From: Arcanobacterium pluranimalium | Lineage (GTDB): Bacteria > Actinomycetota > Actinomycetes > Actinomycetales > Actinomycetaceae | Assembly (NCBI RefSeq): GCF_016907845.1 | Contig: NZ_JAFBCS010000001.1 | Location: 1,674,001-1,738,000 of the forward strand | Length of the DNA: 64,000 nucleotides | Reading direction: 5' to 3' | Part shown: in pieces, positions 40,676-43,517 of the stretch | Layout of the letters: every line of letters starts with the position of its first letter | How positions within the stretch are numbered: the first letter of the stretch is position 1 | The notes under the pieces: model-generated | The model's database searches: none | What the model was told of the DNA's origin: nothing | The model's input: only the letters and a program-made list of their open reading frames with translations | Position numbers and translations under genes: made by a program

Positions 40676-40813
40676 GGGACCTCCTCTTTCATTTGCCCCG
40701 CCCGATACGGCCGTCGATTATCATGCTCGGTAACATCGAGAAACCGCTCACCACAACCGAAGACCGAATCCAAAGGCGAAGGTCTTCTTCTATTTACTTT
40801 TGATGTTATGACA

Positions 40814-40847: not shown

Positions 40848-41117
40848 TCAGCGGCGAAGGCCGAGACGTGAAATCAGGGAGCGGTAACGCTCAATATCCT
40901 CAGCAGCGAGGTAAGCGAGCAGACGCTTGCGCTTACCAATGAGAAGCATCAAACCGCGACGGGAGTGATGATCATGCTTGTGAGTGCGGAAGTGCTCAGT
41001 CAGCTCCTTGATACGAGCTGAAAGCAGTGCAACTTGAACTTCAGGGGAACCAGTGTCGCCCTCGTGTGTTGCGTATTCCTTGATGATTTCATCTTTGATC
41101 TCTTTAGAGAGAGCCAT
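40848..41117 (-). CDS. rpsO: Ribosomal protein S15
   Basis: 89-aa primary 16S rRNA-binding protein of the small-subunit platform. Typical [22 protein letters not shown] and [20 protein letters not shown], ending [16 protein letters not shown] 41117 with AGAAGGAG upstream. Conserved neighbour order ribF-rpsO-pnp. Confidence 0.98.
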
Positions 41118-41278
41118 ACGATTCTCCTTCTTTCTCGTTGCACAGAGCTCAGGGCATATTCTCCTGAGCGATGACGTTCCGTGGCCGATCTAACGGCTTC
41201 ACTACTCTACCATGCGAAGCAAATGAGCTTCGAGTTTAAAATCGGTGACCTCAAACTCATCTACAAACTCATCTCCCG

Positions 41279-42289
41279 CTAGAATCGCTCAGCTTCAATA
41301 CCAGCTTTCACCGACGACGGATCCACCCGGCGTGCCACCGGCACTCCTAAAACTTCTGCACTGCGCCGCAGATCTTCATCCATCTGCTCAAGAAGCTCAT
41401 CAACTGACTCACAACGCACCATAGGCCGCAGCCACTGAATAAAATCAATCGCAATTTCTTCACCGTAGAGATCAAGGTCGCTACGCCCGAGCACATGAGC
41501 TTCAACAGTGCGCTGCTGTCCATTGAACTGCGGATTGTTTCCAATCGATATAGCAGCAGGTAAATGCACCGTTGCAGCAGTACCAGGAACAGTGCGCACG
41601 AGCCAACCGGCATAAACACCCTCAGCAGGCACTTCACCTAACTGATTTCCAGTTAAATTAGCCGTTGGAAAACCAAGTTCACGCCCGCGCTTAAAACCGT
41701 GCTGAACGACTCCCCGAATACGATGAGGACGCCCCAAAACTTTCGCTGCACCAGCCACATCACCTTTGCTCAGCAGCTCACGCACCCACGTCGAGGACCA
41801 ACGCCGCCCGTCGTCGTCACACAAATCGTCGAGAAGATATACGGCGAAACCTAACTCCTCACCGACCTCCCGCAAGAACGCGCCGTCGCCGCTGTTGTGC
41901 AGACCGAACCGCACGTCTTCCCCTACCACAACGCTACCTGCATGTAACTGCCCAACCAGCTGCTTTTCGATAAAATCACGTGGTGTGAGCGCCGCATAGT
42001 CGAGATCATAATGCTGCACATACACTGCATCAATGCCGGCTGATTCTAAACGCTGTAGCCGATCTTCAAGGGACGTCACCAAATTGAGATCTGACTGCGG
42101 ATTGTGTACCAGCCGCGGATGCGGATCAAAAGTCAAAGCGATAGAAATCGCCCCATTTTTCTGTGCCACTTCCACAGTCTTAGCAAGTACCGCATGATGC
42201 CCGCGGTGCACGCCGTCGAAAATCCCGATCGTAACTACGGTATTGTTCAGCTCTTGAGGTACGTCAGCAGGGCTTTTCCAAACTTCCAT
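41279..42289 (-). CDS. ribF: RibF, bifunctional riboflavin kinase / FMN adenylyltransferase
   Basis: Makes FMN and FAD from riboflavin. N-terminal nucleotidyltransferase domain with VVTIGIFDGVHRGHHAVLAK and the ISSTRIR-like region replaced by RRWSSTWVRELLSKGDV; C-terminal kinase domain with GFKRGRELGFPTANLTGNQL and SIGNNPQFNG. 336 aa. Its ATG directly abuts the stop (TAG) of the Cys/His-rich gene upstream, so the two are translationally linked. Confidence 0.93.
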   Translation of the reverse strand: MEVWKSPADVPQELNNTVVTIGIFDGVHRGHHAVLAKTVEVAQKNGAISIALTFDPHPRLVHNPQSDLNLVTSLEDRLQRLESAGIDAVYVQHYDLDYAALTPRDFIEKQLVGQLHAGSVVVGEDVRFGLHNSGDGAFLREVGEELGFAVYLLDDLCDDDGRRWSSTWVRELLSKGDVAGAAKVLGRPHRIRGVVQHGFKRGRELGFPTANLTGNQLGEVPAEGVYAGWLVRTVPGTAATVHLPAAISIGNNPQFNGQQRTVEAHVLGRSDLDLYGEEIAIDFIQWLRPMVRCESVDELLEQMDEDLRRSAEVLGVPVARRVDPSSVKAGIEAERF

Positions 42290-42565
42290 CTACTTGCCAC
42301 GCAGCCCTAGCTGCGTACGTCCACCGGAAATATCTGCAGGCGCATTTGCCGGTGTAGCTTCAGTATGCATACCAGCGCGTTTGCCTTTGCCACCGCAACC
42401 ACATCGGCCGCCGCCACAGCCACCGTGACCGCCGTGTCCATGACCACCGTGCCCGTGAGCACCGCCGTGCGCTTCCTGAGCAGATTGTTCTTTTTGCACT
42501 GCATTCTGTGCATGTCCGTGTCCACCACAGCCACAGCCATGCTTAACTTCTTGTGTATTGTCCAT
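42290..42565 (-). CDS. Small Gly/His/Cys-rich protein, probable metal binder
   Basis: 91 aa with ten His, five Cys and many Gly. Two CxC motifs (HGCGCGGHGH near the start, GRCGCGGKGK in the middle) flank the His-Gly stretch HGGAHGHGGHGHGGHGG; the C-terminal third is plain (ending RTQLGLRGK). I do not recognise a family. The composition suggests binding of Zn, Ni or Cu; this is inferred. Its stop abuts the ribF ATG. The ATG lacks a ribosome site but has -10 TAAACT seven bases upstream, so it may be leaderless, and a GCCGC-N3-GCGGC palindrome overlaps the promoter. Confidence 0.65.
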   Translation of the reverse strand: MDNTQEVKHGCGCGGHGHAQNAVQKEQSAQEAHGGAHGHGGHGHGGHGGCGGGRCGCGGKGKRAGMHTEATPANAPADISGGRTQLGLRGK

Positions 42566-42572
42566 AGCTACT

Positions 42573-42592
42573 AGTTTAAGCCGCTAGGCGGC
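42573..42592 (-). promoter_or_regulatory. Leaderless -10 box with overlapping palindrome
   Basis: Minus strand -10 TAAACT (42578-42573), seven bases before the ATG of the Cys/His-rich gene. A perfect GCCGC-CTA-GCGGC palindrome (42580-42592) lies just upstream in the spacer, a plausible operator. Confidence 0.45.
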
Positions 42593-42733
42593 CTAATTCT
42601 TGCTGAAAGTCCCGCAAAAGTTGAGAGTTCTATCAAAATCGCTCAAAGATCGCCAGCCGGCCGGCTTCGATTGCACGCCTGCTCTCAATCTGTTTCGCGT
42701 CACAAAACCATAGGCACTGCTCGCACATGTCAT

Positions 42734-42742
42734 TGTTATAAT
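42734..42742 (+). promoter_or_regulatory. Extended -10 promoter of the DUF421 gene
   Basis: TGTTATAAT gives a consensus TATAAT (42737-42742) with the TGN extension. No good -35 is seen. Predicted leader about 115 bases, containing repeated ATACTTTGG and CACAAAG words (42750-42797) of unknown role. Confidence 0.6.
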
Positions 42743-42863
42743 CGACTGGCACAAAGAGATACTTTGGAGCGAATGAATACTTTGGCACAAAGCAACATTC
42801 GATGCATTAACACCGCACTAACGCTGCATTGCCACAAAGAGATCCGCAGAGGAGAGGAGAAGA

Positions 42864-43457
42864 ATGTCATATCCACACGGATTAGACGCTTGGCTTGGAA
42901 TCACTTGGGAAGGAGCCTTTGCCGCAATCGTATCTACGGTGGTGATATACGCCGTCTTCCTCATTGTGATCCGCATTCTCGGCCAGCGACTACTTGCTGG
43001 ATTGACCACATTCGACACTCTGATGGTTCTGCTTTTCGGATCCATAGTGGCGCGTACTGCGCTAGGACCCGTGCCTACGCTCACCACAGGCATGATCACT
43101 TTTTCCACGCTTTTACTTCTCCACTATTCGGTGGGCCGACTCGCCAACTACCAGTATGGAGATCGCATGATTAACCGGCCAGCAATCGTACTTATGGCCG
43201 GTGAAAACATTCTTGAATCAAATCTTAAGAGCACCCACACCACTCGATCAGAACTCTTCTCACAACTACGTGAACACGGAATCCACTCCCCTGCACTCGT
43301 CGCTGCCGTCATACTCGAACCGTCCGGGCGACTGTCGATTTTAACTCGCTCGCACTTGATCACATCGAGTTTGCTCGAGGGAGTGCGCGATGCGCATCTC
43401 ATTCCGCGCGAATTTCTTGATCTCAGCTCAGAAATATCATCGCCGCAAGTTAGCTGA
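42864..43457 (+). CDS. DUF421 (YetF-like) membrane protein
   Basis: 197 aa. Three N-terminal membrane helices (about residues 15-95: WEGAFAAIVSTVVIYAVFLI, LMVLLFGSIVARTAL, TLTTGMITFSTLLLLHY) and a cytoplasmic DUF421 domain with RPAIVLMAGENILESNLKST and LFSQLREHGI. Bacillus homologues are implicated in spore or envelope functions, but the molecular role is unknown. GAGGAGAGGAG precedes ATG 42864. It stands alone on the plus strand inside the truB-ribF gene order, ending at a hexanucleotide repeat. Confidence 0.88.
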   Translation: MSYPHGLDAWLGITWEGAFAAIVSTVVIYAVFLIVIRILGQRLLAGLTTFDTLMVLLFGSIVARTALGPVPTLTTGMITFSTLLLLHYSVGRLANYQYGDRMINRPAIVLMAGENILESNLKSTHTTRSELFSQLREHGIHSPALVAAVILEPSGRLSILTRSHLITSSLLEGVRDAHLIPREFLDLSSEISSPQVS

Positions 43458-43463
43458 GCATTA

Positions 43464-43517
<54 letters not shown>

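Follow-up and report, generated by a model that had tools for sequence, protein, structure and literature searches.

Both Cys-rich small proteins and leaderless ORFs coupled to a downstream gene are known kinds of element. The locus described here appears to join the two with a movable LGLR motif and a fixed position before ribF, and it is this combination that is new in the literature searched: nothing in the open papers searched was recognised as this ribF-linked gene, and a movable LGLR together with fixed ribF linkage was not found there. The gene lies in Arcanobacterium pluranimalium, in a stretch of 64,000 nucleotides (the window; positions 1,674,001-1,738,000 of the 2.10-Mb genome).

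With respect to leaderless ORFs, a polycysteine attenuator is reportedly the subject of a 2020 paper by Canestrari. Mycobacteria provide a precedent for small proteins that start leaderless and are coupled to the gene behind them (PMC4633059, in excerpt). Actinobacteria often have leaderless genes: nearly one quarter of mycobacterial transcripts are leaderless (PMC4633059, in excerpt), and in C. diphtheriae leaderless genes make up 20% (PMC5784534, in excerpt). The leaderless, Cys-rich mycobacterial uORFs (PMC4633059, in excerpt) resemble the small ORF of the window, which is likewise Cys-rich, is probably a leaderless first cistron and has adjoining stop and start codons. The small ORF differs from them, however, in its protein conservation outside the Cys residues and in its position before ribF. 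In addition, the cysteines of its family are spaced as CxC in a Gly-rich context, rather than being encoded by the consecutive Cys codons that mark Cys-responsive uORFs.

Bacterial metallothioneins such as SmtA and MymT are small and Cys-rich, contain CxC motifs and have no predicted fold, all of which is true of the small protein as well. The small protein differs from metallothioneins in lacking a Pfam or NCBIfam match, in its high Gly content and in its conserved Cys-free tail, and a classical metallothionein has more Cys than the four to six found in 46 of 61 members of the family. The Helicobacter nickel proteins Hpn and Hpn-like are small and His-rich, as is the window protein, but high His content is not conserved in our family, 22 of its 61 members having two His or fewer. 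In composition, the Gly-Cys and Gly-His runs of the tail of E. coli SlyD presumably resemble those of the small protein. This C-terminal metal-binding tail is His/Cys-rich, like the small protein, and unstructured (PMC7055735, in excerpt), as the small protein may be. The latter stands alone without an FKBP-type PPIase domain (it has no Pfam domain) and has a conserved LGLR tail and ribF linkage. Finally, the Cys modules of two distant members are weakly similar to DUF7196 (PF23826; E 0.07, below cut-off), to which the window protein has no match at E up to 1.

A small gene before ribF

The locus consists of the following features, given in window coordinates.

41279..42289, minus strand: ribF, bifunctional riboflavin kinase/FAD synthetase (Pfam FAD_syn and Flavokinase, NCBIfam PRK05627), probably coupled to the small ORF
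42290..42565, minus strand: small Cys/His/Gly-rich ORF upstream of ribF, 91 aa plus stop TAG
42521..42538, minus strand: first Cys module GCGCGG, residues 10-15; C11 and C13 unchanged throughout an alignment of 19 sequences that includes the window
42419..42469, minus strand: His-Gly run, residues 33-49, variable among relatives
42389..42418, minus strand: second Cys module CGGGRCGCGG, residues 50-59; C55, C57 and G59 unchanged throughout the same 19-sequence alignment
42293..42388, minus strand: conserved Cys-free tail KGKRAGMHTEATPANAPADISGGRTQLGLRGK, residues 60-91
42299..42328, minus strand: core motif SGGRTQLGLR, residues 80-89, common to distant members

The product contains 10 His, 5 Cys and 27 Gly residues, and the first two counts, recomputed from the ORF, are those of an initial annotation that had described a Gly-rich protein at 42290-42592. 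The coding part of that range stands but stops at 42565, the remainder being promoter DNA. Other elements of the same description were recovered as stated: CxC motifs at residues 11-13 and 55-57 lie on both sides of the His-Gly run, the TAG stop (42290-42292) directly abuts the ribF ATG at 42289 in the same frame, and no Shine-Dalgarno (SD) sequence was found ahead of the small ORF.

The initial annotation knew of no family for the protein, and our searches agree. Neither Pfam nor NCBIfam returned a family for the window protein at E up to 1, PHROG models gave no match, and eight distant members scanned against models gave none above cut-off. PDB yielded one composition match to the window protein, which was weak (E 0.47), and none to profile A2, which comprises the last 37 residues and was built from close relatives; a plasmid search at E up to 0.01 found no match. 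Two g24 members, L160 (a 122-aa protein, G113) and L139, carry an extra Ala-rich C-terminal stretch, and that of L160 has a very weak likeness to the IF3 N-terminal domain (E 0.21).

A search of whole genomes for homologues, as proposed in the initial annotation, located orthologues beside ribF. Profile A2 matched better than 1e-12 in 22 of 213 Actinomycetaceae genomes, all of them in genera g1, g25 and g27, and ribF adjoins the match in all 22 (85 nt apart in G004). Across the phylum, weak matches (E up to 0.01) occurred in 13 of 396 genomes besides the window's own, none better than 4e-4, and in a sample of 297 genomes of the order none outside the family was better than 2e-3; the weak out-of-family matches that became loci had no ribF alongside. 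Because A2 was built from close relatives, distant members unlinked to ribF could be missed by it. A single-sequence search of 200 family genomes gave matches in 88 of them at E up to 0.1, which reflected mostly Gly-rich composition and were not used for counts. The small protein of Trueperella bonasi (L088) is identical to that of L020 in g27, a genus that is probably Trueperella, and the Arcanobacterium phocae protein (L087) is the same as that of L021 in g25.

The region upstream of ribF was then surveyed in 94 Actinomycetaceae genomes, made up of 34 with hits (window included) and 60 that cover genera without strong hits, and the family proved wider than the sequence searches had indicated. 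Under a strict rule, which asks for at least two CxC and LG[LVI][RKT] within an ORF whose end lies -350 to +40 nt from the start of ribF, the gene is present in 55/94 genomes and 15/30 genera, the window protein included. By route of entry, these are all 34 of the genomes pre-selected by hits and 21 of the other 60 (27/60 with additions made by eye). A relaxed count reaches 61/94 genomes and 16 genera by adding six loci judged by eye (L120, L121, L125, L126, L157 and L162); L141, which looks like a degenerate member, was kept out of the counts. The strict rule found nothing on opposite strands (0/94) or in other families of the order (0/40 genomes, among which L206 holds only ~300 nt upstream), and it found 2/1880 in shuffles of single bases within 50-nt blocks. 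Judged from sequence comparison, the small proteins form a family restricted to this lineage, and none of the libraries searched has a model for it.

No small gene precedes ribF in 33 of the 94 surveyed genomes under the relaxed count (39 under the strict one), including 2/10 genomes of the window's genus and 5/5 examined in g10, and the gene is therefore dispensable.

Within the 19-sequence set of close relatives, which includes the window and omits three near-duplicates (L011, L015 and L022), pN was below pS in 136/136 pairs of 17 tails, with mean pN 0.20 and mean pS 0.76; L007 and L019 were left out of this count for indels. Since homologues occupy the same place in many genera and are under purifying selection, the ORF goes beyond chance, and it is a real gene. 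One could still imagine a chance ORF of low complexity that shadows some other signal, given the Gly/His content and a His run that varies freely. Same-place homologues in 15 genera, against 0/40 genomes outside the family and 2/1880 shuffles, together with purifying selection and a conserved -10 box, refute this scenario.

Conserved parts of the family

Comparison across the 61 members indicates which parts of the protein are retained; for distant members the start codons are guessed, so that lengths and residue counts are approximate. The number of Cys ranges from 3 to 17, with at least four in 56/61 members, four to six in 46/61 and only three in 5/61, and at least two CxC motifs, the number in the window protein, are present in 56/61. 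His ranges from 0 to 16, with 0-2 His in 22/61 and none at all in many; the 16-His extreme and the 297-aa length extreme both come from a single guessed-start ORF, L104. What stays constant is the CxC/CGCGG modules and a short, movable GRxxLGLR motif. The His run does not, and the emphasis that the initial annotation placed on it is thus not borne out.

The LGLR motif is C-terminal in 49/61 members and N-terminal or mid in 11/61 by a scripted count. In g24 it was judged by eye to be N-terminal in 5/5, one of which the script labels mid; in g8, g23 and one g11 genome it lies inside the protein and is followed by another Cys cluster; and g12 and g28 have an additional, weaker copy (LGV or MGV) ahead of LGLR. 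The changing order of parts suggests that GRxxLGLR is a short binding motif set beside metal-binding modules, rather than part of a folded domain.

The CxC motifs make metal binding by the small protein plausible, although the five members with three Cys and the many that lack His speak against it. Because the number of His varies from 0 to 16 while Cys is at least four in nearly all members, the likely ligands are the cysteines, and the chemistry of Cys ligands points to Zn(II) or Cu(I) as the predicted metal and not to Ni, which His-rich proteins prefer. AlphaFold produced no fold for the small protein alone (mean pLDDT 50, 8 alignment rows), a result that fits a metal-free thiolate peptide and would, at 8 rows, equally fit any low-complexity protein. 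A cytosolic location seems likely, as no hydrophobic N-terminus was apparent by eye.

A terminal arrest peptide, in which the conserved tail would act by ending at the stop, was also considered. It was rejected for the family as a whole, since in g8, g23, g24, the single g4 member and a g11 genome LGLR is N-terminal or internal; within the genus of the window it is still conceivable.

The start of the small ORF and its probable coupling to ribF

The DNA ahead of the small ORF contains three further features.

42573..42578, minus strand: -10 box TAAACT, 7 nt before the ATG, candidate promoter for a leaderless start; TANNNT in 19/19
42580..42592, no strand assigned: palindrome GCCGCCTAGCGGC, overlapping the promoter, not conserved
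42593..42607, minus strand: upstream element TTCAGCAAGAATTAG, shared unaltered by L004 and with a single change by L003

TANNNT lies 6-7 nt before the ATG in 19/19 close relatives, window included, compared with a background of 2.8% of positions further upstream at a slightly wider spacing of 5-8 nt. For L016 and L024 an upstream in-frame ATG was chosen to fit the box, and without these two the count is 17/17. The box thus sits where the leaderless -10 of the initial annotation would require it, and the small ORF probably starts leaderless in Arcanobacterium and its nearest relatives. Beyond them, g22 has TAGACT at leaderless spacing in 6/6, and in members of g5, g17, g19 and g30 some ATG or GTG has such a box under a looser test that tries every ATG/GTG of the ORF. 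Trying every ATG/GTG found no such box in g8, g11, g12, g16, g23, g24, g28 and the single g4 member, so the family does not start leaderless throughout. A stricter scan over 42200-42900, which required paired -35/-10 sigma-70 hexamers, found 0 promoters (shuffles 0.7), and the -10 box is therefore the one feature that supports the start.

The palindrome that had been reported here is present and overlaps the promoter, as claimed; a role as a control site did not survive. It was rejected as an operator because L003 and L004, the closest relatives, do not retain it, and because its pattern GCCGCNNNGCGGC occurs at 2 genomic places versus 6 for a reversed control. The window holds one full-length match, and the palindrome scores as terminator-like on the plus strand (2 such sites; shuffles 0.8). 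The adjoining TTCAGCAAGAATTAG is kept while the spacer between it and the -10 box differs, and may be a regulator site; elsewhere in the window it has five matches with 2-3 mismatches, where 1.9 were expected in all.

At the other end of the small ORF, the stop lies at most 12 nt ahead of the ribF start or at most 7 nt beyond it in 45/61 members, distances being measured to a ribF start extrapolated from alignment. The remaining 16/61 leave a gap of more than 12 nt, and of up to 331 nt, between the ORF and ribF, and tight coupling is therefore not universal. When the two genes adjoin, an SD is mostly absent before ribF: a match of at least 4 nt in the region 18 to 4 nt upstream of its start is present in 12/45 genomes with an adjacent gene, versus 24/31 without the gene (31 of the 33 gene-less genomes have an assigned start). 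The Fisher p value of 1.8e-5 for this difference is uncorrected for relatedness and for coding constraint on the stretch, and part of the difference may come from such constraint. This pattern of missing ribosome sites suggests that ribF translation is probably coupled to the small ORF where the two are adjacent.

The same arrangement would be expected if the ORF were mainly a cis-acting, leaderless regulatory element like the polycysteine leaderless ORFs of mycobacteria, with its translation (slowed by a shortage of Cys or Gly, or by the nascent chain) setting ribF expression and the peptide itself having little function. The placement of the -10 box, the stop/start adjacency, the weak ribF SD and the presence of Cys codons all accord with such an element, and Cys-rich leaderless uORFs have been proposed as attenuators (PMC4633059, in excerpt). 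However, the products are of protein length, at 36 aa and more (with distant starts guessed), and conservation at the amino-acid level extends into the Cys-free tail. Moreover, LGLR changes place in 11/61 members, the ORF ends ~50-330 nt ahead of ribF in several genera, and the cysteines are spread out instead of forming runs. We consider a mainly cis-acting role unlikely, while giving it more weight than the other alternatives discussed here.

Flavin synthesis and a model for the small protein

The initial annotation suggested a link to flavin synthesis. The link is seen in gene order and in the probable translational coupling. No association with RibB emerged: RibB (PF00926) is present in 11/55 strict members versus 8/39 others (14/61 versus 5/33 under the relaxed count). 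A connection with riboflavin prototrophy was rejected on these figures, RibB being the one marker looked at.

As the window's genome has no RibB (PF00926) match, riboflavin uptake by the host is probable, and FAD synthetase would be expected to be essential in such a host. RibB matches are found in 54/213 family genomes, and riboflavin auxotrophy is probably widespread in Actinomycetaceae.

A direct role in flavin cofactor synthesis can be envisaged if the protein were an adaptor with structural zinc that used its LGLR motif to bind RibF or a flavoprotein, thereby channelling or regulating that synthesis. The linkage to ribF across 15 genera and the conserved, docking-like, Cys-free motif would be explained in this way. 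Against an adaptor are the lack of RibB association and the 39/94 genomes (strict) in which RibF does without the small gene. In addition, when the small protein and RibF were modelled by AlphaFold as one read-through chain, pLDDT was below 50 at nearly all small-protein residues. That model is weak (12 rows, overall mean pLDDT 53, the RibF part itself poor) and was read for pLDDT only, with no contacts, and it leaves room for binding between the small protein and RibF. On balance an adaptor seems improbable.

Our preferred explanation, to which we give about an even chance, is that the product is a small protein that binds metal through thiolates and that the gene at the same time serves as a translational coupler, being the leaderless first cistron of the ribF operon. 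The protein would be a probably disordered, cytosolic metal-thiolate, acting as a zinc or copper buffer or chaperone. Its CxC/CGCGG modules would hold the metal, with His-Gly runs as accessory sites in some species, and the short GRxxLGLR motif would dock it to a putative partner. The small gene would be transcribed from its own leaderless promoter; ribosomes would load on the 5′ AUG, terminate at a stop that overlaps or adjoins the start of ribF, and reinitiate at that point. RibF output would then follow translation of the small ORF.

A more elaborate version is that metal loading or Cys supply of the nascent chain gates the arrival of ribosomes at ribF, and that the mature protein then uses GRxxLGLR to attach to RibF or a flavoprotein. 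We regard such gating as quite improbable, more so than the adaptor. If it were true, flavin cofactor supply would track metal or thiol status across much of Actinomycetaceae.

With regard to significance, the locus adds a family without a Pfam or NCBIfam model that is conserved in position across 15 of the 30 Actinomycetaceae genera examined. It suggests that a leaderless first cistron can be the ribosome entry for an FAD synthetase gene, and it offers a compact case for studying how operons come to retain small leaderless proteins.

Several observations concern the neighbouring DNA. Near ribF, only two Rfam matches were obtained at E up to 1, both below gathering scores: an Actino-pnp RNA and an S15 leader, at 40706-40768 and 41061-41174 on the minus strand, at or immediately ahead of the pnp and rpsO starts. 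Ribosomal protein S15 (40848-41117, minus strand), encoded next to ribF, ends in RLGLRR and thus has LGLR in common with the small-protein motif; this may be coincidence, or possibly a shared rRNA-binding or helix-capping element. Finally, a perfect 9-copy repeat of the hexamer GCACAG occupies 43464-43517, between a convergent DUF421 gene and truB, and is a possible variable-length or strain-typing site.
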